A DNA stretch of 64,000 bases from Mesorhizobium sp. 131-2-1 (GTDB taxonomy: Bacteria; Pseudomonadota; Alphaproteobacteria; Rhizobiales; Rhizobiaceae): positions 5,394,501 through 5,458,500 of the forward strand of contig NZ_AP023247.1 of the NCBI RefSeq assembly GCF_016756535.1. Direction: 5' to 3'. Below are positions 36,882 to 48,169 of the stretch, piece by piece. Both the position numbers and the translations under genes were made by a program. Positions within the stretch are counted from its first letter, which is position 1; each line of letters begins with the position of its first letter. Below the pieces are notes generated by a model. It saw only the letters and a program-made list of their open reading frames with translations. It had not been told where the DNA came from and made no database searches.

Positions 36882-37142
36882 CCTCGATAGAGCTGGCTTC
36901 TGGAAGGTCTGGCTATGGGCGCAGGGCGTCACCGGCGGAAGCAGACTGAAGGAACCCAAGCGCAAGCATTCGCCGAGGGCCGCTGAATCAAGGCATCAAC
37001 CTTATCGCTGAGGTTCGCTGTTCTGACGTCGGTCGGATCGTAGTCCGCGCTACCCCAACAGCTTGTCGCAACGTGTGCGGTACTCCCCGAATAACCCGTT
37101 CCGTAGTATGGCGAATCGACATTGAAAAATTTGGAGATTCCA

Positions 37143-37733
37143 TTGCTTCGCCGCAGTCTTATTGCCTTTGTCGCTGTCGCTCTTACCGCTTGCACCACGT
37201 CCTCCATCGATCCGCAGAGCAAGGCCTCCATAGGCCTCGTCTACGTGGAGCCTGTGCAGTTATCAAAAGCCACTGTCTTTGCGCCAAATCTAAGTGAGGC
37301 AAATGAAAGTTCCGGGAAAGTGCCCGCCACGGTGGCAGAGGCTACTTCCCGTCTTCAAGAGGTCGTGGATACGCGCACCAACCTCCGCGAGCTCATCGAG
37401 AGTCAGGCGAAGGAAGACCTCATTGCCAAGGGATATCGCCTGACAGACGCGGCATCAGGCGCCTCCGCCACGCTGAAGATCAACGTGTACCACGCATTGA
37501 GCGTACCAATTGGCGATGGGCGAGGGATTGCAATGACCGTCAGCGCTGAGATGGTTCGTTCATCGGACGGTAAACGGTTGATGTTCGCAGGCGCCAGCCA
37601 AATCAAGGATTCAGAAGCGAAGGGAGTTCGCGTGGCACCCTATGCCGAATGGTTCACCAATGATGATTTCGTCGTAGAGCAGTACCGCTTGGTAGCTCGG
37701 CTGCTGACTGCTCAGGCCCTTGCGGGCCTGTAG
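37143..37733 (+). CDS. predicted lipoprotein
   Basis: 196 residues from a TTG start: MLRRSLIAFVAVALTAC, with lipobox LTAC. GGAG sits six bases before this TTG, so I prefer it to the TTG at 37122, which would add seven residues. The mature protein (about 175 residues) has TLKINVYHALSVPIGDGRGIAMTVSAEMVR but no family I recognise. It lies tail-to-tail with the adenylate cyclase gene. Its GC content seems lower than most of the window. 36882-37142 upstream shows nothing else. Confidence 0.72.
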   Translation: MLRRSLIAFVAVALTACTTSSIDPQSKASIGLVYVEPVQLSKATVFAPNLSEANESSGKVPATVAEATSRLQEVVDTRTNLRELIESQAKEDLIAKGYRLTDAASGASATLKINVYHALSVPIGDGRGIAMTVSAEMVRSSDGKRLMFAGASQIKDSEAKGVRVAPYAEWFTNDDFVVEQYRLVARLLTAQALAGL

Positions 37734-37849
37734 GGACGTAAAAACTCGGTGGTCGACTGCTTCGCGCACCGCAGCGGACACTCGAAACGACGATGTTTGA
37801 CTAGCTTGAGGTGCAATGCGCTCCAGGGTCGGCATCGCCAAGCGGCAAA

Positions 37850-38920
37850 TCAGGCAGGGAGCCGCCACATTCGCACACGACCTGTGCCACGCAATTCCGT
37901 TTCCCCGAGCGGCTCGCAAGCGAAATCCGGCCCGAGCAATTGGCGGGTTGCATCCGAAATGCGGATTTCATCTGGCTCCGCGGCCTTTTGAAGGCGCGCG
38001 GCGAGATTAACGGTGTCGCCCCACAGGTCATAGACAAACCGCCTTTTGCCTATGACGCCCGCCACGATCGGTCCGGAGTGAATTCCAATTCTGAGACTTA
38101 GCGGTTCGCCCGCGAAGCGCTCTCGCCTGGCCGCCTCCCGCAGCTCAAGCGCATAGTCCACTAGGGCTTGCGCATGATCGGATCGCGCGACGGGCAGGCC
38201 AGCGACCGCCATGACACAATCGCCGATGGTCTTGATCTTTTCGCAGCCGTATTGTTCCGAGAGCTGATCCGCCGCCTTGAAGAAGTAATTCAGGATAGCG
38301 ATCGTCGTCGCGGCTCCGACGCTGCGCGCTCTTTCCGTAAAACCGACGATGTCGGCAAAAAGCACACTGACCTCCGCGTGGTTGTCTGCAATTTGCTCGT
38401 CCGCTTTCAGCCGCTCCGCGATCGACGCCGGAAGTATGTTGAGGAGCAAGGATTCGGCGCGCCGGTATTCGCGCGACAAACCCTCCTGGCTCTCCCTCAA
38501 TGCCTCGTTCGTCGATTGCAGCTTCGCATTGAGTTGACGCTCCCTCTCCTGCAGGAGCGTCATGTCATAAGCCTTCTGTTGAAGCCGCTGCTGGTTGTCG
38601 TGTTCGGGAGTGGCGTCGAGAAAGACCAGCCACACCGAACCGCCTTCGCCAAAGAGATGAAGGTCCGCGACACGCCCGCCGGGCAGTTCCATCATGGGCA
38701 TATGGAATGGAAGCTCCGGGCAAGGCAGCAGGCCTTCCATGAATTCAAGCTGATCGGCAACAGGCTTGCCAATGCGAAGCGACGAGAGTCCGTAATGTTC
38801 AATGTTGCCGCCCTTCGCGGCCACGCATTGCCGGGCGTCAATTTTCAGATATGCGGCAGATCGCTCAGTATAGAAGAAATCGTAAATCCAGCTTCTGACT
38901 TCTTTCGGCACTCTGGGCAT
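37850..38920 (-). CDS. class III adenylate cyclase
   Basis: 356 residues. An N-terminal sensor-like region (about 1-110), with VWLVFLDATPEHDNQQ at its end, is followed by a coiled coil (QERERQLNAKLQSTNEALRESQ) and a CYC domain. Both metal Asp residues (FADIVGFT, TIGDCVMA), the adenine-selecting Lys and Asp (EKIKTIG, VYDLWGD) and the transition-state Asn and Arg (VNLAAR) are present, so it should make cAMP. No membrane span. It is the last gene of the GTPase operon, 3 nt after the GTPase stop. Confidence 0.92.
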   Translation of the reverse strand: MPRVPKEVRSWIYDFFYTERSAAYLKIDARQCVAAKGGNIEHYGLSSLRIGKPVADQLEFMEGLLPCPELPFHMPMMELPGGRVADLHLFGEGGSVWLVFLDATPEHDNQQRLQQKAYDMTLLQERERQLNAKLQSTNEALRESQEGLSREYRRAESLLLNILPASIAERLKADEQIADNHAEVSVLFADIVGFTERARSVGAATTIAILNYFFKAADQLSEQYGCEKIKTIGDCVMAVAGLPVARSDHAQALVDYALELREAARRERFAGEPLSLRIGIHSGPIVAGVIGKRRFVYDLWGDTVNLAARLQKAAEPDEIRISDATRQLLGPDFACEPLGETELRGTGRVRMWRLPA

Positions 38921-38923
38921 GGT

Positions 38924-39418
38924 CTATTTTGCGACCATCGAGGCAAGCTGACGAAAGGCATCGTCAACATGTTCGCCCGAAAGCGCGCTTGTCAGATAGA
39001 TTTGCCATCCACGTTGCTTCAGTTCGTCAATCTCACCATCCGATATAGCCCACCGATCAGCCAGATCGGATTTGTTGAACAGCAATACGAACGGCATGGC
39101 GCCGAATTCGGCCTCGACCCGCTCGCGCAGCGTGAGCGCCACGGCAAGAGTAGCTGGCCGGGTTCCATCGACGACAAGCACGAGCCCGGTCGAACCTCGC
39201 ACATAGCTGACGCGGAAGGAGCCGATGTCGTCCTCGCCGGCCAAATCCCACAAAATCAGATCCACGGTTTTGTCCGCAAGTGCGACGCTCTTCTTGTCGA
39301 TCTTCACTCCCACCGTGGTCAAATAGGTATCTGAAAAGATGCTTTGCACGAACCTGCGTACCAGACTCGTCTTTCCGACGGCAAACCCGCCCAACATGCA
39401 GATCTTTTTTTGCAACAT
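38924..39418 (-). CDS. Ras/Rab-like small GTPase
   Basis: 164 residues. G1 is GGFAVGKTS (11-19), G2 includes the Thr of YLTTVG, G3 is WDLAGEDD, G4 is NKSD, and G5 is SALSG. It is a compact prokaryotic member of the Ras superfamily. The G3 position equivalent to Ras Gln61 is Glu, so intrinsic hydrolysis may be slow or need a partner. No lipid-attachment motif is seen. It lies between the OmpA-domain and cyclase genes, with gaps of 14 and 3 nt. Confidence 0.88.
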   Translation of the reverse strand: MLQKKICMLGGFAVGKTSLVRRFVQSIFSDTYLTTVGVKIDKKSVALADKTVDLILWDLAGEDDIGSFRVSYVRGSTGLVLVVDGTRPATLAVALTLRERVEAEFGAMPFVLLFNKSDLADRWAISDGEIDELKQRGWQIYLTSALSGEHVDDAFRQLASMVAK

Positions 39419-39432
39419 CCTAGGCCCCGCCC

Positions 39433-42093
39433 CTAGTCCAGGTTTACCGTAAACGAAACCCGGCGATTGGTGGAGCTCCCAGTTTTACTATTTTCAGGCA
39501 CCGCCGGCTCAAAGGTGCCCGCGCCCCGGACCAGCAGCAGTTCCGGAGCGACGCCGCGCTTGTTGAGAAGCGCACGAACTGTCTCGGCGCGGGCCGCGCT
39601 GATCGACGCGTTGGCTGTCTCACGGCCCGTGGTGTCCGAATGGCCGGTCAGCATGAACCGCGCTGTTACGCCTGCCTTGCGGGCATTCTCGGCGAATTCC
39701 TTTATTTGATCCGCCAATCTGTCGAGAACCGGCGTCTGCTCCGGTCCCGGCACAACTTTGCCGGAAGAGAAGAAAATATCGGTCGTCTGGATGGCCTCTC
39801 TCAAATAATTAAGTTCTGCAAGGTTCAGCTCACGCAGCTGCGAGACATCCAGAACCACTCCGTCCGCCGAAAGTTGGTCGGCGGCCGCCTGCGCCCGGCT
39901 GATCCAGCCGGCGGGAGCCTCACCCATGACAACGATGCGACCCTGGACGATCGAAAGCCGAACCGATTTCGGCGGGGACAGCGACGCCGTCAGCCGCTTC
40001 ACCACGAACTTCGGATCAAGACTCTGATAGAATTGCCACTGTGAATGAACGCGGGCGGGATCAACCTGCGTTCCGGACAGCAGAGCTTGCGGGTCGGCAG
40101 CAAGCGGGTCTCTCAGACCGGAAATGTAGAAATGTCCGCCCCTCGTCGTTTGTTGGGCGACGATGATTCCCGATTGGGCCTCAAGTCGCGACACATAATA
40201 CTGCCAATGCTCCGCCGCGCGTGCATCGGGGCTTACATCACGAACCTTGGAGATGTCGAACTCCGGTCCGCCTGCCGAAAGCTGTCGAGCCGCTGCGCGC
40301 GCCCGATCTATCCAGGTGTCGGGAGCCTCACCCTCGGCAACGATGCGGTCATTGACGATCGAAAGCCGTACTGTATCCGGCGGATACAGCGACGCCGTCA
40401 ACCGCTTCAACACGAACTCCGGCTCAAGGCTCTGATAGAATTGCCACTGTGAATGAACGCGGGCGGGATCGAGCTGCGTTCCCGACAACAGCGACTGCGG
40501 GTCGGCGGCAAGCGGGTCTCTCAGGCCGGCAATATAGAATTGGCCATCGCGCACCTTTTGTTCGGAAACAACGACGCCCGGCTGGGTCCCCAGTCGCGAC
40601 ACATAGGCCTGCCAGCGTTCCGCCTCGCGTTCCTCGGGGCTCATCACATCGCGGACCCCGGCGATATCGAATACCGGTCCGCCTGCCGAAAGTTGCTGGG
40701 CGGCGGCCCGCGCCAGGTCGATCCACGTGGCAGTAGCCTCGCCCTCGGCAACGATGCGATCATTGACGATCGAAAGTCGTACTGAATTCGGCGGAGCCAA
40801 CGACGCCGTCAGCCGCTTCAGCACGAACTCCGGCTCAAGGCTCTGATAGAATTGCCAGTTTGAATGAACGCGAGCCGGATCGACCTGCGTTCCCGACAAC
40901 AGCGACTGCGGGTCGGCGGCGAGCGGGTCTCTCAGCCCGGCAACATAGAATTGGCCGCCGCGCACTTTTTGTTCGGCAACGATGATGCCCGGTTGAGCCT
41001 CCAGTCGCGACACATAGGCCTGCCAGCGCTGCCCGGATTGCCAGGAAAGGAAGAACCAACCGCCTGCCGGAATCAAAATCAGCAGGGCTGCAGCAACCAC
41101 CAGCCACGGAAATCCCTCGTTTGAATCCTCCTGCTTCAGTTCAACACAGGTCTGCAACTGCGTCTCTACGCCGGCCAACTGCGAACTGTCGCCGTCAAAC
41201 TCCTCTAAAGCCTGTGAGGATTCCTCATGGAGGCGAAGCGATACATCGCGAATTATTTCATGGAGTTCCTCTGGCGGATTTCCCCGGATCACCGCGACCA
41301 AGGTCGCAAACGGTCCAACTTCCGACCAGAGACGAAGCTCGCCGAACCGGATGGTGTCCAGGCCGCTTTGTTCTTTCTCGTTGAACGAGTCCCTCACAAA
41401 ATCCTGAATGGCGCTGAGCATCGAGGAAATCAGCTGAGGGTCTTCGCTGGTTGCGTTTTCGGCCGTTACATGGGCGATCAGAAGCCCGGAACTGCGGCTG
41501 ATGAGAAAGACATGCTCTACGCGATAGACAAGAGAATGCTTAAGAACAACCTCCGAGAAGCTTACTCCAGTTCTCCAAGCTTCAAATCTCCACTTAAGTC
41601 CATGCCAGGTAAATATATGTCTTAAAGATTCATTCAGGGACTGAAAGGTCTGGTCGATCTTTTCGCCGATCGACTTGCGAATTGCCGGCAGAAACACCGG
41701 GTATAATATATCCGTCAGCGTGCGCGGGTTCTTCTGGATGGACCGTTGCGCGGCCCTCTCGACAGCCGGGGCAAGGGCATCGCCGAGTTGCGCATGAGCC
41801 GCGCGCGCGGCTGCATCGGGCAGAACGTTGCCCACTGCGGCTGCAAGCTGCTCGGGTTCATCGAGCAGGTGCGTAACTCGTGAAAGTTCCGATATTTCGC
41901 CGCCAACGAGCAACTGGCGAAGCTTTTCCAGCCGATGATCGGCGGTTGGAATTCCTTCGTAAAGCGCATGGTGGTCCGGATCGACGTTCCGGGCAATTTC
42001 CACCAACAGGCGGGCCAAAGCCTCGCGATCAATCTTGGTATCGCTCGAAGCTGTTTTTTGGGGAAGGCTGATTGGTTCGACGGTCGACGTCAA
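39433..42093 (-). CDS. membrane protein with three internal repeats and OmpA-like domain
   Basis: 886 residues from a TTG start. Residues 1-327 are cytoplasmic. Within them, about 190-300 (VEHVFLISRSSGLLIAHV, SSMLSAIQDFVRDSF, ALEEFDGD) looks like a sensor domain of roadblock/longin type. A single membrane segment is at 328-350. Three repeats start at 356, 493 and 629 with W-Q-x-Y-V-S-R-L. About 765-886 is a peptidoglycan-binding OmpA domain (TGHSDTTGRETANASISAAR). It should span from cytoplasm to cell wall. The preceding coiled-coil gene ends 7 nt upstream. Confidence 0.85.
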   Translation of the reverse strand: MTSTVEPISLPQKTASSDTKIDREALARLLVEIARNVDPDHHALYEGIPTADHRLEKLRQLLVGGEISELSRVTHLLDEPEQLAAAVGNVLPDAAARAAHAQLGDALAPAVERAAQRSIQKNPRTLTDILYPVFLPAIRKSIGEKIDQTFQSLNESLRHIFTWHGLKWRFEAWRTGVSFSEVVLKHSLVYRVEHVFLISRSSGLLIAHVTAENATSEDPQLISSMLSAIQDFVRDSFNEKEQSGLDTIRFGELRLWSEVGPFATLVAVIRGNPPEELHEIIRDVSLRLHEESSQALEEFDGDSSQLAGVETQLQTCVELKQEDSNEGFPWLVVAAALLILIPAGGWFFLSWQSGQRWQAYVSRLEAQPGIIVAEQKVRGGQFYVAGLRDPLAADPQSLLSGTQVDPARVHSNWQFYQSLEPEFVLKRLTASLAPPNSVRLSIVNDRIVAEGEATATWIDLARAAAQQLSAGGPVFDIAGVRDVMSPEEREAERWQAYVSRLGTQPGVVVSEQKVRDGQFYIAGLRDPLAADPQSLLSGTQLDPARVHSQWQFYQSLEPEFVLKRLTASLYPPDTVRLSIVNDRIVAEGEAPDTWIDRARAAARQLSAGGPEFDISKVRDVSPDARAAEHWQYYVSRLEAQSGIIVAQQTTRGGHFYISGLRDPLAADPQALLSGTQVDPARVHSQWQFYQSLDPKFVVKRLTASLSPPKSVRLSIVQGRIVVMGEAPAGWISRAQAAADQLSADGVVLDVSQLRELNLAELNYLREAIQTTDIFFSSGKVVPGPEQTPVLDRLADQIKEFAENARKAGVTARFMLTGHSDTTGRETANASISAARAETVRALLNKRGVAPELLLVRGAGTFEPAVPENSKTGSSTNRRVSFTVNLD
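39802..41028 (-). repeat. three tandem in-gene repeats of 408-411 nt
   Basis: Repeat units are 40618-41028, 40210-40617 and 39802-40209, encoding 137, 136 and 136 residues. Units 1 and 2 are nearly the same in protein and DNA; unit 3 is more diverged (HWQYYVSRL, RGGHFYISGL). The shared core is GLRDPLAADPQ-LLSGTQ-DPARVHS-WQFYQSL. Units 1 and 2 look recently duplicated. Confidence 0.9.
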
Positions 42094-42100
42094 GTTCCGA

Positions 42101-42766
42101 TCAACTCACTTTCCAGCCACGCTCCGAATTGCCCTTGCTGCCGACGGGGTCCTGATTGAGACATTTCGCGACCTCGACGAACAGGCCGGCCAAAAGATTT
42201 CGGTCGGTCTTGACGTTGCTGAGATCAGAAAAGATCTTCTCCATCAGCATTTGAGCGCTTTCGTTCTTTTGCTTGATTTCCTCGCGCAGCAAATGGTCGC
42301 TTCTGTTCATGCGATCCGCTATTTCGCGCTCAAGCTCGCTCAATTGATCCGACAACGCGCGCACCTGCTTTTCGAGCGCCTGATTCTGATCGCGAAGGGT
42401 GCGGTCGATCTCCTTGTCGGCCTCGGCTCGCGCATCTTTTTCGTTGCGCAACTGCGTCGCCAGCGAGTCAACCTGCTTCTTCGCATTCGACTCATAGGTT
42501 TCAAGATTGCGCTTGGCTTCGGATTCGACATCCTTGAAGCGTTGCAGGAACCGCTCTTCAAGCTTGGAGAAGCGGCGGTCATAGTCCTGCATCTGATTGC
42601 CGAACAACAGGTCGCGTATCTTGTCAACGCCTGGAGCGTCAGTGCCGGCCCCGCTATCGCGAGCCTGGGCGGCCATGAAGTTCAGCCCGTTGCCCTCTGC
42701 ATTTCCTATCAGATTTGCGTCCGCTTTACTTGCTGAAGAAGCGGTATTCGAAGAGTCTTTTGCCAT
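42101..42766 (-). CDS. coiled-coil protein, first gene of GTPase operon
   Basis: 221 residues. A disordered N-terminus of about 50 residues is followed by a long predicted coiled coil (about 65-190; RRFSKLEERFLQRFKDVESEAKRN and similar heptads rich in Glu, Lys, Arg). A short hydrophobic-amphipathic tail ends RNLLAGLFVEVAKCLNQ. No catalytic motif, signal or membrane segment. It probably scaffolds the GTPase or the cytoplasmic part of the OmpA-domain protein. Function not recognised. Confidence 0.75.
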   Translation of the reverse strand: MAKDSSNTASSASKADANLIGNAEGNGLNFMAAQARDSGAGTDAPGVDKIRDLLFGNQMQDYDRRFSKLEERFLQRFKDVESEAKRNLETYESNAKKQVDSLATQLRNEKDARAEADKEIDRTLRDQNQALEKQVRALSDQLSELEREIADRMNRSDHLLREEIKQKNESAQMLMEKIFSDLSNVKTDRNLLAGLFVEVAKCLNQDPVGSKGNSERGWKVS

Positions 42767-43131
42767 CCTTACACCCCATCGCCCAATGAGAAATTCGGAA
42801 ACGAGAATTTATGTCAGACAAATACCCGGGCCGCAAGCCGGAATCCTGTTGGCCTTAAGTCGATTCGTGCGTCCTCGGTTCGTCTCTTTGACCAGTAACA
42901 AATGCACCAGTTCCGATTGGTCTCGCTCTTGTACGGCAGTCGCGCCGACGGTGCAGACAGCACCGACAGCGGCCACGGTCTCGCGAGTGACGATGGCGAC
43001 CGCAGCAACATCCGGTAGTCGCCGCTGCCTTGGGGCCTTGGTCCTAAGATAAAATCTACGCCGAAAACGTGCTAGGGTGGCCGCCGCAGGGCGCGGCTTG
43101 CAGCGCTTCAAGTCGGTCAGGAACGATCGTC
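42767..43131. other. intergenic, 365 nt, divergent control region
   Basis: Lies between the coiled-coil gene and the HD-domain gene, so it should hold both promoters. A 100-residue minus frame at 42809-43111 has no ribosome site or family resemblance and I do not call it. No clear operator is seen. Confidence 0.5.
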
Positions 43132-44019
43132 ATGCTCAATCCAATCTCCATCATGGCCGACCGGCTCGGCGACTATCTGTCGGAACTCTATCTCCAGTAT
43201 TTCTCGCATCGCAATCCGGAATATGCGGCCTACATGGGCGGGGCGGCGCGCCTTGTCCTGGAGCGCATCGGCAATTCGAACGCGCTCTATCACAACATCG
43301 AGCATACACTGATGGTTACGCTCGCCGGCCAGCAGATCATCCGCGGACGGCTGCTTTCGGAATCCCTGACCCCCGATGACTGGCTGCACTATACCTGCGC
43401 GCTGCTTGTCCACGACATCGGCATGGTGCACGGCGTGTGCGAGGGCGACACCCAGGACAGCTTCGTCATCAACGAGGCCGGCGACCGCTATACGCCACCG
43501 CGCGGCGCCTCCGACGCGGTGCTTGCGCCCTATCATATCGAGCGCGCCAAGATCTATGCGCGCCAACGTTTTGCGGCCTCGAAGTTCATCAACGAGGAGC
43601 GCATCGTCGAGGCGATCGAGATGACGCGCTTTCCGGTGCCGGACGACCCGGCCTACCAGGTCACCAACACCGAGCCTGCGTTGGTCAGGGCCGCGGACCT
43701 GATCGGCCAGCTCGCTGATCCCTTCTACCACCGCAAGCTGCCGGCGCTGTTTGCCGAATTCTCTGAGACCGGGATGGTGGAAAAGCTCGGCTGCAGGACC
43801 GCCGCCGATCTCGGCGCCCTCTTTACCGATTTCTTCACGCTGCAGGTCGAGCCCTATATCGGCGACGCGATCCGCTATCTGGAGCTGACGACGGAAGGCA
43901 AGCAATGGATCGCCAACCTCCACAGCAACCTCTTCCAGGCCGGGCATCGCCCGGCCAAGATCGGGCCGTTCCCCGGCTTGTTGCAGCCGACCTCGGCGAG
44001 CCTTTCGGTGGTGACCTAA
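43132..44019 (+). CDS. HD-domain metal-dependent phosphohydrolase
   Basis: 295-residue cytoplasmic protein. The HD signature is complete: His in NIEHTLMVT, the His-Asp pair in LLVHDIGMVHG, and a later Asp in RAADLIGQLADP. AGGA lies about nine bases before the ATG. HD proteins hydrolyse phosphate esters, nucleotides or cyclic dinucleotides. It is divergent from the GTPase-cyclase operon, so a link to nucleotide signalling is possible but not shown. Confidence 0.82.
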   Translation: MLNPISIMADRLGDYLSELYLQYFSHRNPEYAAYMGGAARLVLERIGNSNALYHNIEHTLMVTLAGQQIIRGRLLSESLTPDDWLHYTCALLVHDIGMVHGVCEGDTQDSFVINEAGDRYTPPRGASDAVLAPYHIERAKIYARQRFAASKFINEERIVEAIEMTRFPVPDDPAYQVTNTEPALVRAADLIGQLADPFYHRKLPALFAEFSETGMVEKLGCRTAADLGALFTDFFTLQVEPYIGDAIRYLELTTEGKQWIANLHSNLFQAGHRPAKIGPFPGLLQPTSASLSVVT

Positions 44020-44138: not shown

Positions 44139-44384
44139 TTACCCCCCCGCCAACCGCGGCAGCAGGAAAATCTCCGCCCCCTCCGGCAGTTCCTTCGACC
44201 AGGTATCGCGGTAGATCGTGCCGTCGATCGCCACAGCAATGCCGCGGTCGATCCAGGGCTCGAGGCCGGGATACTGTTCAGCCAGCTTCCTGAACAGCTC
44301 CCTGATGTCCTTGGCCTCGACCTCGACCTTGCTCTTGCCTCCGGCAAGCTGGCCGAGCGCTCCCCAGAGGGTGACTTCGACCAT
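44139..44384 (-). CDS. MoaD/ThiS-like sulfur carrier protein
   Basis: 81 residues with a ubiquitin-like beta-grasp pattern and a C-terminal RLAGG. The Gly-Gly end is where MoaD or ThiS is thiocarboxylated. It follows the molybdopterin-binding subunit gene by 15 nt, so it is probably the last gene of that operon and may supply sulfur for its cofactor. A separate general moaD should exist elsewhere in the genome. Confidence 0.82.
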   Translation of the reverse strand: MVEVTLWGALGQLAGGKSKVEVEAKDIRELFRKLAEQYPGLEPWIDRGIAVAIDGTIYRDTWSKELPEGAEIFLLPRLAGG

Positions 44385-44399
44385 TGCCGCAGGACTCCC

Positions 44400-46664
44400 C
44401 TAGCCTTCCCGTTCAGCCTCGATGGCCGCCAGGATGCGCGGCGGCGACATCGGGATGTGGGTCATGCGCACGCCGGCGGCGTTCGACACCGCATTGGCGA
44501 TCGCCGCCAGTGGCGGCACGATCGAGGTTTCACCGACGCCGCGCACCCCGTAGGGGTGGTTGGGGTTGGGGATCTCGAGGATCTGCGTGTCGATCATCGG
44601 CAGGTCGGAGCAGACCGGGATGCGGTAGTCGAGGAAGCCGGGGTTCTGCAGCCGCCCGTCCTTGCCGTAGATATACTCCTCGTTGAGCGCCCAGCCGATG
44701 CCTTGCGCCGCACCGCCCTGGTACTGGCCCTCGACATAGGTCGGGTGCACTGCCTTGCCGGCGTCCTGCACCACGGTGTAGCGGATGACCCTGGTGGCGC
44801 CGGTCTCGGGGTCGACCTCGATGTCGCAGATATGGGTGGCGAAGGAGACGCCGGCGCCGTCGGCGACCAGCTCGCTGTGGCCGGCGATCGGCCCGCCGGT
44901 CTTGCCGGAATCGGCCGCGATCTCCTTCAGCGACAGTTTTCCCAGATTGCCGTGCTTCTCGCCCTTGGCGACCGCATGGCCCTTTTCCCAGGCGACGTCG
45001 TCGACCGAGATGTCCCACATCTGCGCGGCGCGCTCGCGCAGGATCTTGATCGCGTTGCGGGCGGCCGAGATGGTCGCCATCGAGGAGGAGAAGGTGCCGC
45101 GGCTGCCGTCGGTCATGTCGTTGTAGCCGAGGCTCGACGTGTCGGCGACGATCGCCTTGACCTGCGAATAGTCGATGCCGAGCTCCTCCGCCGCCACCAG
45201 CGACAGCGAGGCGCGGGAACCACCGACGTCGACCGTGCCGACGGCAAGCGAGACCGAGCCGTCCATGCCGATGTTGAGGTCGGTGCAGGTCTGGCCGCCG
45301 AAGTTGAACCAGAAGCCGCAGGCCATGCCCCTGCCCTGGTTCTCCTTGAGCGGCGCCCTCATGTGCGGATGGTTCTTCACCGCTTCCAGCGTCGGGCCGA
45401 TGCCGATCGGGCCGTAGACCGGGCCGTAGGAGGAGCGTGTGCCCTCCTGGGCCGCATTCTTGATGCGGAAGTCGACCGGGTCGATGCCGATCTCCTTGGC
45501 CAGCTCGTCGACGGCGCTTTCCACGGCGAAGGCCGCCATCGGCGCCGAGGGCGCGCGATAGGCCGCGGTCTTCGGCCGGTTCACCAGCACCTCGTAGCCG
45601 ACGGTCTTGACGTTTTCGAGCTTGTAGCAGGCGAACGCCGTCATGGCGCCGATCTCGGCCCACATGCCGGCATAGGGGCCGCACGAATAGCGCAGCGTCG
45701 CCTCGGCGGCGGTGATGGTGCCGTCCTTGCGGGCGCCTATTCTGACGTCGATCGAAGTGGCGCTGGTCGGGCCGGAGGCGCGGAACACCTCGTCGCGGGT
45801 CATCACCAGCTTCACCGGCCGTCCGGCCTTGCGCGACAGAGCGAGCGCCACCGGCTCGGCCCAGACATGGGTCTTGCCGCCGAAACCGCCGCCTATCTCC
45901 GAAGAGGTGACGCGCAGCTTCGAAGCTTCCATGCCGAGCAGCTGGGCGCAATGCTGGCGATAGACGAAATGGCCCTGCGTGCAGACCCAGAGGTCGGCGG
46001 TGCCGTCGGACGACACGCTCGCCACGCAGGCATGCGGCTCGATATAGCCCTGGTGCGTCTGCTCGGTCTTGAAGGAGCGTTCGACGACGAAATCGGCCTG
46101 GCCAAAACCCGCATGGACGTCGCCATGGCCGTATTGCGTGCGCTTGGTGACGTTGGACGGCTTTACCGGCTTCTCCTCGAGGCCTTCGGTGAAGATGGCG
46201 TCGTTGATCAGCGGGGCGGAGTGCTTCATCGCCTCGTCGACATCGGTCACATGCGGCAGCACCTCGTATTCGATCTCGATCAGCTTCAGCGCCTGCCGGG
46301 CGGTGCGAGCGTCGATCGCCGCGACCGCGGCCACCGCATGGCCGTCATAGAGCGCCTTGGTGCGCGCCATGCAGTTGTCGAGGATGTCGTACATGGCGGC
46401 ATCGCCGTCGGTCAGGTCCGGGAGGTCGGCGGCGGTGATCACCGCCTTCACGCCGGCGAGTTTTTCCGCTTTCGAGGTGTCGATCTTCTTGATGATCGCA
46501 TGCGCGTGCGGGCTGCGCAGCACGCGGCCCACCAGTTGCCCCGCCATGTTGAAGTCGGCGCCGTAGCGGGCGCGGCCTGTCACCTTGTCGACGCCGTCGG
46601 GACGGATGGGACGCGTGCCGACGGAAGAGAAATTGCGTCCGGAGTAGCGCGGATCGAAATTCAT
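44400..46664 (-). CDS. xanthine dehydrogenase-family molybdopterin-binding subunit
   Basis: 754-residue large subunit of a molybdenum hydroxylase. GGGFGGKTHVWAEP and TAAYRAPSAPMAAFAVES match the cofactor-binding regions, and the near C-terminal GVGETS carries the catalytic Glu. It should hydroxylate an aldehyde or N-heterocycle. No Tat signal is seen, so it is probably cytoplasmic with the 2Fe-2S and FAD subunits upstream. Substrate unknown; an amidohydrolase and amine genes are upstream. Confidence 0.92.
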   Translation of the reverse strand: MNFDPRYSGRNFSSVGTRPIRPDGVDKVTGRARYGADFNMAGQLVGRVLRSPHAHAIIKKIDTSKAEKLAGVKAVITAADLPDLTDGDAAMYDILDNCMARTKALYDGHAVAAVAAIDARTARQALKLIEIEYEVLPHVTDVDEAMKHSAPLINDAIFTEGLEEKPVKPSNVTKRTQYGHGDVHAGFGQADFVVERSFKTEQTHQGYIEPHACVASVSSDGTADLWVCTQGHFVYRQHCAQLLGMEASKLRVTSSEIGGGFGGKTHVWAEPVALALSRKAGRPVKLVMTRDEVFRASGPTSATSIDVRIGARKDGTITAAEATLRYSCGPYAGMWAEIGAMTAFACYKLENVKTVGYEVLVNRPKTAAYRAPSAPMAAFAVESAVDELAKEIGIDPVDFRIKNAAQEGTRSSYGPVYGPIGIGPTLEAVKNHPHMRAPLKENQGRGMACGFWFNFGGQTCTDLNIGMDGSVSLAVGTVDVGGSRASLSLVAAEELGIDYSQVKAIVADTSSLGYNDMTDGSRGTFSSSMATISAARNAIKILRERAAQMWDISVDDVAWEKGHAVAKGEKHGNLGKLSLKEIAADSGKTGGPIAGHSELVADGAGVSFATHICDIEVDPETGATRVIRYTVVQDAGKAVHPTYVEGQYQGGAAQGIGWALNEEYIYGKDGRLQNPGFLDYRIPVCSDLPMIDTQILEIPNPNHPYGVRGVGETSIVPPLAAIANAVSNAAGVRMTHIPMSPPRILAAIEAEREG

Positions 46665-46665
46665 C

Positions 46666-47142
46666 TCAGGCTCCCTTCATCACGTTTGCGGCGTCCTGGA
46701 CGGCGCGCACGATCTTGTCATAGCCGGTGCAGCGGCAGAGGTTGCCGGCCAGGCCGAAGCGGATTTCCTCCTCGGTCGGGTCGGGATTCTTGGCGAGCAG
46801 GTCCTTGGCCGCGATCAGGAAGCCCGGCGTGCAGATGCCGCATTGCAAGGCGGCGTGCTCGAGGAATTTCTGCTGCAGCGGATGCAGCTGATCGCCATGC
46901 GCCATGCCCTCGACGGTTTCGATGCGCCGGCCTTCCGCCTCGGCGCCCAGCACCAGGCAGGAACAGACCAGCCGGTCGTCGAGGATGATGCTGCAGGCGC
47001 CGCAGTCGCCGGTGCCGCAGCCTTCCTTGGCGCCGGTCAGCCCCAGGCGGTCGCGCAAAACGTCGAGCAGCGTCTCGTCCGGCTGGCACAGGTATTCGAC
47101 GTGATCGCCATTGATTGTCGTTGAAACCGCTACACCGGCCAT
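46666..47142 (-). CDS. xanthine dehydrogenase-family 2Fe-2S subunit
   Basis: 158 residues. The N-terminal plant-type cluster has its cysteines in [10 protein letters not shown] and the later VCSC. The C-terminal helical domain carries the second cluster in CGICTPG and CRCTG. It moves electrons from the molybdenum site to FAD. The ATG overlaps the FAD subunit stop (ATGA), and the large-subunit gene starts 1 nt after its stop. Confidence 0.93.
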
Positions 47143-48002
47143 CACTTGCCTCCTGCACGCTGATAGGCGGTCGTGGCGGCTCTCCTGGCCAGCACACCCG
47201 CGACTTTCCGTCTGAACTCGATGGTGCCCCGCTTGTCGTCGATCGGGCGGCAGGCGCCCGCGCAGACCTTGGCGAGCCGCTCGAGCGCGGCCTCGTCGAG
47301 CGTCCTGCCGATAAGCGCCTCGGCGGCCTCTTCGACCAGCAGCACCGTGGGTGCCGCGGCGCCCAGCGCCACGCGGGCGGCCTTGACGACGCCCTGCTCG
47401 TCGAGCGTCAGGTTGACGCCGGCGCTGACCACAGCGATGTCCATCTCGGTGCGCGGAATGAAGCGCAGATAGGCATCGCCCGAACGCGGCGCGCGCTTGT
47501 CGAGCAGGATCGCGTCGATGATCTCGCCCTTGGCGAGCGAGGTCCTGCCCGGCCCGGTCGGCACGGCCTCCACGGCAATCGTGCGGCGGCCACCCGGCCC
47601 GGCAATCGATGCCCTGGCGCCGGCGGCCACCAGCGCCGGCACGCTGTCGGCGGCCGGCGAGGCGTTGCAGAGATTGCCGACGATGGTGCAGCGTCCCTGC
47701 ACCTGCTTGGAGCCGATCAGCTTGGCCGCCTCGACGACGCCCGGCCATGCCTTCCTGACGGAAGCGTTCTCGCCCAGAACGGCGCAGGGCACGGCGGCGC
47801 CGATGCTGAAGCCTTCGGCGGATTCGCGGATTTCGCTCAGGCCGTCGATGGCCTTGATGTCGACAATCAGGTCGGGTTCGATGAAGCCGCCCTTCATCCT
47901 TACCAGGAGGTCGCTGCCTCCGGCGAGGATGGCGGCCGTGCCGGACGACCCGGCCAGCAGGCCAACGGCGTCGTCGATTGAATGCGGACGTATGTAGCGC
48001 AT
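47142..48002 (-). CDS. xanthine dehydrogenase-family FAD-binding subunit
   Basis: 286 residues. FAD-binding motifs are ILAGGSDLLVRMK (about 25-37) and TIVGNLCNASPAADSVPAL. First gene of the molybdoenzyme operon. The start at 48002 has GAGGAGACG immediately upstream; an upstream extension to 48098 would lack this. Gene order FAD, 2Fe-2S, Mo subunit is that of CoxMSL/CODH-like hydroxylases. Confidence 0.92.
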   Translation of the reverse strand: MRYIRPHSIDDAVGLLAGSSGTAAILAGGSDLLVRMKGGFIEPDLIVDIKAIDGLSEIRESAEGFSIGAAVPCAVLGENASVRKAWPGVVEAAKLIGSKQVQGRCTIVGNLCNASPAADSVPALVAAGARASIAGPGGRRTIAVEAVPTGPGRTSLAKGEIIDAILLDKRAPRSGDAYLRFIPRTEMDIAVVSAGVNLTLDEQGVVKAARVALGAAAPTVLLVEEAAEALIGRTLDEAALERLAKVCAGACRPIDDKRGTIEFRRKVAGVLARRAATTAYQRAGGK

Positions 48003-48169
48003 CGTCTCCTCATGTTTATCGCAATTTCGTCGACCGTTATAAAGGGTCTCCTCATAATGGCCATCCTCTTCCGCACCGGCGGCGATTGGGCCAGCCACTG
48101 CAAAATTAGGTCCAAGGCGGCAACCGACATGTGCCAGCGCCGGCGCGCCGCACGAGGATGTCCTTGCAC

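Follow-up and report, generated by a model that had tools for sequence, protein, structure and literature searches.

The operon at 37850-42766 on the minus strand of the window (the whole 64,000-nucleotide (nt) stretch of the Mesorhizobium sp. 131-2-1 genome that was analysed) encodes a coiled-coil protein (CC), a membrane protein with an OmpA domain (OMP), a small GTPase and a class III adenylate cyclase (AC). It is a cyclic AMP (cAMP) output variant of a known layout, that of the Group 1 Rup GTPases, and this layout is a real and widespread signalling chassis. OMP has a predicted longin domain, and it is proposed with moderate confidence that OMP sets the state of the GTPase by means of this domain and that the GTPase gates AC. 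What most deserves following up is the longin prediction, together with the output-swapping adaptor. The genes, with lengths in amino acids (aa), are:

42101..42766, minus strand: CC, cytosolic coiled-coil protein, 221 aa, the operon's first gene (open reading frame and family conservation)
39433..42093, minus strand: OMP, 886 aa, TTG start, with predicted longin domain, transmembrane segment, repeats and OmpA domain (open reading frame, Pfam, hydropathy and fold)
38924..39418, minus strand: GTPase, Group 1 Rup small GTPase, 164 aa (open reading frame, Pfam and sequence relatives)
37850..38920, minus strand: AC, 356 aa, with PAS-like domain, signalling helix and class III adenylate cyclase (open reading frame, Pfam and model)

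A preliminary description of the window had reported four minus-strand genes separated by 7, 14 and 3 nt, and open reading frame analysis recovered the same frames and gaps; its reading of three products as a coiled-coil protein, an 886-residue one-pass OmpA protein and a Ras/Rab-like GTPase agrees with the open reading frames, Pfam matches and hydropathy.

The GTPase and the conserved gene set

The GTPase matches the Pfam family Ras (PF00071, E 9.9e-28) and possesses the motifs G1 GGFAVGKT, G3 DLAGEDD, G4 NKSD and G5 TSA; among proteins of solved structure, Rab23 is closest to it in sequence (E 4.7e-24). Group 1 Rup GTPases were defined as lacking the G3 glutamine (Wuichet and Søgaard-Andersen 2014, PMC4316618, accessible text). 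The window GTPase has Glu62 in the place of Ras Gln61, is a single-domain protein of 164 aa (below the 240 aa of Group 1), is not coupled to MglB, and lacks the adjacent Roadblock protein of the MglA/MglB and conservon arrangements; no Pfam Roadblock match (PF03259) was found in the whole window genome at E <= 0.001. This genome encodes one small free-standing Ras-like GTPase, its three other PF00071 matches being in frames of 476-861 aa. In the accessible text of PMC4316618, the neighbours of Group 1 Rup GTPases are a coiled-coil protein and a protein in which a conserved unknown domain often precedes a transmembrane helix and OmpA, the output protein has an N-terminal region with an invariant glutamine, and a Group 1 Rup GTPase of Mesorhizobium loti is named. 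The preliminary description knew of no described system with this set, a statement that has to be withdrawn, since PMC4316618 describes the layout.

Conservation was surveyed in a species-level scan (one genome per species), which gave at least 586 stretches, at least 555 of them confirmed to be related to the OMP N-terminus; of these the best 80, ranked by similarity to a Lysobacterales query, were kept, and 40 further loci were hand-picked from genomes of Pseudomonadota, the phylum of the window. Loci L001-L050 and L091-L100 are outside the counts, L065 and L102 are one record, and related rows are not independent. By record title, the best 80 loci come from Gemmatimonadota, Acidobacteriota, Planctomycetota, Nitrospira, Verrucomicrobia, Bacteroidetes, Dehalococcoidales and others. 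A CC homologue is encoded no more than 900 nt from the OMP gene, in the same orientation, at 109 of the 111 loci with enough sequence, and in the two misses (L117 and L119) an over-extended OMP start seems to engulf the CC match. Within about 1.2 kb after OMP, a GTPase gene is present at 104 of 110 testable loci (the misses are L070, L079, L141, L145, L147 and L150, with an opposite-strand GTPase in L145 and L147), and a 4-nt overlap joins the GTPase gene to the output gene at 53 of 104 loci, with start codons chosen by script. The preliminary idea of a module withstands the co-occurrence test proposed with it: the set recurs far beyond Hyphomicrobiales, in many phyla. The OMP domain is sparse in Alphaproteobacteria, the class of the window (9/337 sampled genomes), and occurs in 50/398 genomes of the phylum, over half of them from one family. 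Long GTPase frames (for example L105, L108, L117, L122, L154 and L173) were rejected as proof of contact by gene fusion, because they extend into the OMP gene on its own strand and appear to have been given starts too far upstream.

Among 99 Mesorhizobium genomes, the N-terminal domain of the output is present as 57 copies in 56 genomes; the window's OMP type also has 57 copies, in exactly the same 56, and 53 of the pairs lie 2.2-3.7 kb apart and four are on different contigs. These figures bear on whether the four genes are mere neighbours, AC being just one of many cyclases. The window genome does have 33 class III cyclase matches, but AC alone carries the output N-terminal domain, for which it is the genome's one match, and across the 99 genomes this domain keeps company with OMP, adjacent in 53 of 57 copies, in a layout that recurs in many phyla; chance neighbourhood, already disfavoured, is very improbable. 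A second, distant set of CC, OMP and GTPase genes occurs in four Mesorhizobium records (L052, L054, L055 and L056), with no output gene that bears the shared N-terminal domain.

Exchangeable outputs and the near-invariant glutamine

The following features of AC are referred to below:

38612..38863, minus strand: PAS-like domain, residues 20-103, common to several output kinds (profiles, model and fold alignment)
38576..38578, minus strand: Gln115 codon, near-invariant across outputs (placed by residue number)
37859..38386, minus strand: class III cyclase catalytic domain, residues 179-354

The gene after the GTPase was classed at 104 loci by comparison with Pfam-checked examples. It encodes a histidine kinase with a receiver at 28 loci and without one at eight, a class III cyclase at 20, a sigma-54 activator at eight, a SpoIIE phosphatase at six, a PP2C phosphatase without the N-terminal domain at six, and GGDEF-EAL and HD-GYP proteins at four each; 20 loci were unclassified, ten of them with the N-terminal domain. 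These proportions are not unbiased, because the best 80 of at least 555 loci were chosen by similarity to one query. One core thus precedes seven output kinds, six of which have the PAS-like N-terminal domain in common. A profile made from AC residues 1-145 alone reached 64 open reading frames, and a wider output-domain profile, partly circular because it was built from the outputs themselves, was found in 88 of 109 GTPase loci. The stand-alone PP2C loci are five from Gemmatimonadota (L127, L133, L134, L138 and L139) and one from Thermoanaerobaculia (L165).

A quick tree of the core (OMP N-terminus plus GTPase, 106 rows, SH-aLRT support only) requires at least 12 changes of output type. Seven Mesorhizobium cyclase rows nest in a 15-row clade with support 100, and the other eight rows of this clade are labelled SpoIIE except L051, which is a cyclase. 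Two labels were set by hand: cyclase for L075, at a contig end, and SpoIIE for L057, where the Pfam match has E 0.0059 to the domain start and the frame ends early. (L057:8810-9667 belongs to a second locus in genome G027, and its output has the shared N-terminal domain.) Because of the number of output changes and the nesting of cyclases among SpoIIE rows, the catalytic domain has probably been swapped while the core was kept.

AC itself matches Guanylate_cyc (PF00211, E 1.9e-49). The preliminary description called it catalytically complete, and all six expected residues were located at checked positions (D190, D234, K230, D298, N305 and R309); we take D190 and D234 to bind metal, K230 and D298 to recognize adenine, and N305 and R309 to stabilize the transition state, an adenylate-specific set. 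The cyclase of L051, which is from the same class as the window, has Arg in place of Lys230. The model of the AC N-terminus follows the PAS order of elements, and the coil of AC has a Pfam HNOBA match that lies just over the cut-off (E 3e-05). Alignments of several soluble guanylate cyclase chains run over AC residues 20-356. When the four operon genes were scanned with PADLOC for anti-phage defence, the matches were of PycC cyclase-domain, MotB-like and coiled-coil type; the cyclase domain matched PycC models (best PDLC00734, E 1.3e-15), and no Pycsar effector was matched among CC, OMP and GTPase.

The G3 glutamine is absent from all 108 GTPases in which the position is present, its place being taken by Glu in 49, Arg in 19, Lys in 17, Asp in 12 and other residues in 11. 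Despite unrelated catalytic domains, a glutamine is found at the position of AC Gln115 in 82 of 87 aligned outputs; 18 of the 104 next-gene frames were left out of this count as presumed wrong-frame sequences, PP2C proteins without the N-terminal domain, or stubs (L052, L054, L055, L062, L063, L127, L128, L130, L133, L134, L136, L138, L139, L143, L147, L163, L165 and L178). In the model, Gln115 is near the start of a 59-residue helix (104-162) that exits the PAS-like domain. We infer that Gln115 is the invariant glutamine of the Group 1 Rup outputs described in PMC4316618. In the accessible part of that paper, its authors speculated that the glutamine is supplied in trans and suggested the output glutamine as an element of a GTPase-activating protein (GAP). 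The survey widens the support for supply in trans without proving it.

The GTPase residue that follows DxxG, taken from the top motifs per output type in L051-L180, is Lys or Arg at loci with a hybrid kinase or PP2C. It is Glu where the output is a cyclase or SpoIIE protein and at nearly all sigma-54 loci; GGDEF-EAL loci have Ile, Ala or Val, plain-kinase loci are mixed, and the residue is possibly a marker of output type.

The exchange of catalytic domains also bears on the direction of control. Should AC, in the manner of the conservon histidine kinase, be the sensor and perceive a signal via its PAS-like domain, the GTPase would act on the envelope through OMP. The output glutamine would suit such an arrangement as a candidate GAP element, and PMC4316618, in its accessible text, posits the GTPase as the output in conservons. 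However, the catalytic domain is the exchangeable end, with seven kinds on one core, as is expected of outputs and not of sensors, and control in this reversed direction is judged improbable.

The predicted longin domain and the proposed mechanism

The cytosolic part of OMP, and CC, have these features:

41125..41529, minus strand: OMP residues 189-323, predicted longin-fold domain (AlphaFold2 model and structure match)
41533..41937, minus strand: OMP residues 53-187, helical region ahead of the longin domain (AlphaFold2 model; conservation in 70 rows)
41974..42036, minus strand: OMP residues 20-40, similar to the CC C-terminal motif (sequence reading)
42149..42211, minus strand: CC C-terminal motif, residues 186-206 (family consensus)

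The "unknown domain" of OMP is predicted to have a longin fold. In the AlphaFold2 model, residues 189-323 have the longin topology beta-beta-alpha-beta-beta-beta-alpha-alpha (strands 191-199, 205-210, 247-250, 253-259 and 263-270; helices 219-237, 275-291 and 309-323, with a minor helix at 293-297), and blocks of pLDDT are 90-96 for residues 251-320 and 76-94 for residues 191-250. The structural matches are VAMP7, Sec22b, Fuzzy, TRAPP and Mon1-Ccz1, then MglB; by title, the 50 rows listed are longin, roadblock or adaptor/coat structures, including 15 RabGEF complexes and five MglB. This ranking is from Foldseek, VIA-align being a second look at the same ranking, and the models are of single chains. 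Conserved residues of the longin region are M225, L226, D231, F232, D235, G251 and G271, and those of the helical region P132, N154, R169 and G176 (70 rows).

In the proposed mechanism, the OmpA domain would hold OMP in the peptidoglycan while the protein crosses the inner membrane once, and the longin domain, after the conserved helical region, would bind the GTPase in the cytosol and set its nucleotide state in the manner of a guanine nucleotide exchange factor (GEF) or a GAP, with CC assembling the complex. In one nucleotide state, the GTPase would engage the PAS-like domain of AC and the start of its signalling helix, around Gln115, and this engagement would raise or lower cAMP synthesis; the GTPase being without the usual catalytic glutamine, Gln115 may in addition complete GTP hydrolysis. 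The gene set, its order and co-occurrence, the motif patterns and the predicted folds are observed, and from there we infer the binding events, the order of events, which way control runs, and a signal from the wall. The preliminary description had the OMP repeats read the wall, the GTPase relay the signal and cAMP answer it, a conjectural route that the predicted longin fold and the shared output N-terminal domain make more specific. The parts provide testable wiring, with GTPase contacts on each side, a key glutamine and a simple cAMP readout in a genetically tractable root symbiont. Accessible accounts of Sinorhizobium meliloti, a related rhizobium, report that cAMP made by adenylate cyclases contributes to the control of root infection, and coupling of a cyclase to the wall could therefore be of importance in symbiosis.

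A broader and more tentative possibility is that many phyla have a true Rab-longin pair, in which OMP would be a transmembrane longin exchange or activating factor and a PAS-like "Rup-binding" adaptor, fused to cyclases, kinases, SpoIIE phosphatases, cyclic di-GMP enzymes and sigma-54 activators, would supply the glutamine. If the adaptor supplies the glutamine that the GTPase is missing, each output would act as a GAP as well. Homology of the longins to those in eukaryotic RabGEFs would make the Rab-longin partnership older than the archaeal-eukaryote line, or one that was shared outside it.

The longin domain might instead be a docking platform only, with OMP anchoring the GTPase in the envelope and exchange or hydrolysis controlled elsewhere, for example by CC and the output glutamine. 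Longin and roadblock domains are described as small-GTPase platforms in the accessible text of PMC10933270 and PMC3521125, and the glutamine found in 82/87 outputs could be the GAP element suggested in that of PMC4316618. Nothing speaks directly against this alternative, which we regard as rather unlikely; the conserved longin-region residues fit a platform and a regulator equally.

Several points weigh against the reading in which the longin domain sets the GTPase and the GTPase gates AC. The longin likeness is one of predicted fold only, the model has a helix (179-187) just ahead of the first strand, which is a Roadblock trait, and many longin domains bind no GTPases. Pfam longin and Roadblock matches were below threshold in the 70 OMP rows (two rows each), where unrelated families scored alike (Ku_PK_bind in five, RPC3_helical in three), and when the OMP N-terminal alignment was run as a profile against the PDB, the sole match had E 2.4. 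When hhalign was run in both directions between the longin region and a profile of 24 bacterial Roadblock domains (25 were picked; L182 was left out), the similarity was not significant (P 0.051/0.013, probability 1.1/3.4%), one of the alignments being co-linear across 64 columns; the control, Roadblock against the GTPase profile, gave P 0.019, which is no worse, so the hhalign comparison shows nothing. Such sequence searches do not support homology of the OMP domain to longin or Roadblock families. As for the outputs, the six PP2C phosphatases after the GTPase are without the N-terminal domain, five outputs have no aligned glutamine (L058, L059, L129, L148 and L177), no Pfam PAS model matches AC, and whole chains of AC and guanylate cyclase superpose with a root-mean-square deviation of 12-27 Å, their domain arrangement being different. 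Of the 99 Mesorhizobium genomes, 11 encode a second, distant OMP type, which comes without the output domain; ten of them have no match to that domain, and the eleventh (G002) has the first OMP type as well. Finally, the step from wall state to a change in cAMP is conjectural.

The N-terminal motif of the CC family is DqiRdiLFGxQmrdyexRfxxLeer and its C-terminal motif KtdRxxLAxlxxExaxrL (consensus of 119 rows). The C-terminal motif of the window CC, KTDRNLLAGLFVEVAKCLNQD, is identical at 10 of 21 residues to a stretch near the N-terminus of OMP, KIDREALARLLVEIARNVDPD, and a CC-like stretch is also present near the OMP N-terminus in L051 and L057; the two may possibly form a common docking helix. 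Six OMP matches (G288, G326, G450, G075, G321 and G428) cross one or two stop codons near the start, and the translations of L034 and L048 have a CC-like end motif ahead of the OMP stops, which fits a motif shared by CC and OMP.

The remaining features of OMP are:

41047..41103, minus strand: transmembrane segment, residues 331-349 (hydropathy)
39799..41025, minus strand: three tandem repeats of ~136 aa, residues 357-765 (self-alignment)
39463..39744, minus strand: OmpA peptidoglycan-binding domain, residues 784-877 (Pfam PF00691, E 2.3e-11)

A single 19-residue window of OMP stands out in hydropathy (2.42 at residue 331; runner-up 1.04), and no such window exceeds 1.53 in CC, GTPase or AC; residues 1-330 of OMP would accordingly be cytosolic. 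The closest named relatives of OMP are from Mesorhizobium, with up to 92% identity over residues 1-360 and 90% across the whole protein. The three repeats are 65-79% identical to each other. Mesorhizobium homologues are of about 749, 885 and 1021 aa, in steps of 136 aa that correspond to about two, three or four units, and the copy number seems to vary within the genus, judging by lengths alone, with the units aligned in the window protein.

Around the operon (37000-43400), promoter- and terminator-like sites showed no excess over shuffled sequence. The divergent gene at 43069-44019 (plus strand), ~300 bp from the operon, has a weak HD-domain match (Pfam HD-CE, below the cut-off), and a ThiS/MoaD-like protein (PF02597) is encoded at 44139-44384 (minus strand), beside 44400-48098 (minus strand), presumably a molybdenum hydroxylase operon.

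Comparison with known systems

According to the accessible text of PMC4316618, no Rup GTPase had been experimentally characterised, save for the transcription of one in Nostoc punctiforme; no functional study of Rup GTPases was found in the open-access literature, and such studies may exist elsewhere. Open-access articles joining longin, OmpA and GTPase yielded nothing related, judged by title and abstract, and PMC7159879, which surfaced for the gene set, was set aside since its accessible text concerns other systems.

Compared with the MglA-MglB systems of Myxococcus and Thermus, the window GTPase is Rab/Rup-like and not MglA-like, and OMP differs from MglB in being membrane-anchored, in a Z score nearer to longins than to MglB, and in having no significant Roadblock sequence similarity. 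By predicted fold, the OMP longin resembles those of the RabGEFs Fuzzy-Inturned (Rab23), Mon1-Ccz1 (Rab7/Ypt7) and TRAPP (Rab1/Ypt1); unlike them, OMP is bacterial and has one longin in a peptidoglycan-anchored one-pass protein, identity is 6-17% among the rows listed, and its GEF role is putative. That a bacterial Rab-like GTPase has a partner of predicted longin fold next to it bears on the origin of eukaryotic Rab regulation. Longins are derived from Roadblock/MglB-type domains in the accessible text of PMC3521125, and that of PMC10933270 discusses longins of Asgard archaea.

A GTPase is paired with a class III adenylyl cyclase in the yeast Ras-Cyr1 and mammalian Gs-adenylyl cyclase systems; control in the window operon would differ in running through a PAS-like domain shared with unrelated outputs. 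In soluble guanylate cyclase, too, a PAS-like domain is followed by a long helix and a class III catalytic domain, whereas AC has adenylate-type residues and no H-NOX domain was found in it.

The closest counterpart is the Group 1 Rup system, with which the window operon shares a GTPase without the G3 glutamine, a coiled-coil gene, a protein consisting of unknown domain, transmembrane helix and OmpA, and a fourth-gene output with an N-terminal glutamine. It differs in its output, a class III adenylate cyclase, and in the longin-like fold predicted for the unknown domain. The typical outputs given in the accessible text of PMC4316618 are diguanylate cyclase/phosphodiesterase (GGDEF/EAL-type) fusions or histidine kinases, and the word "cyclase" appears in that text once, within "diguanylate cyclase"; the cyclase neighbour of the M. 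loti GTPase and some of the other output types may already be in its supplementary table. To the description of Group 1 Rup systems, the present survey adds cyclase, SpoIIE, PP2C, HD-GYP and sigma-54 activator outputs.

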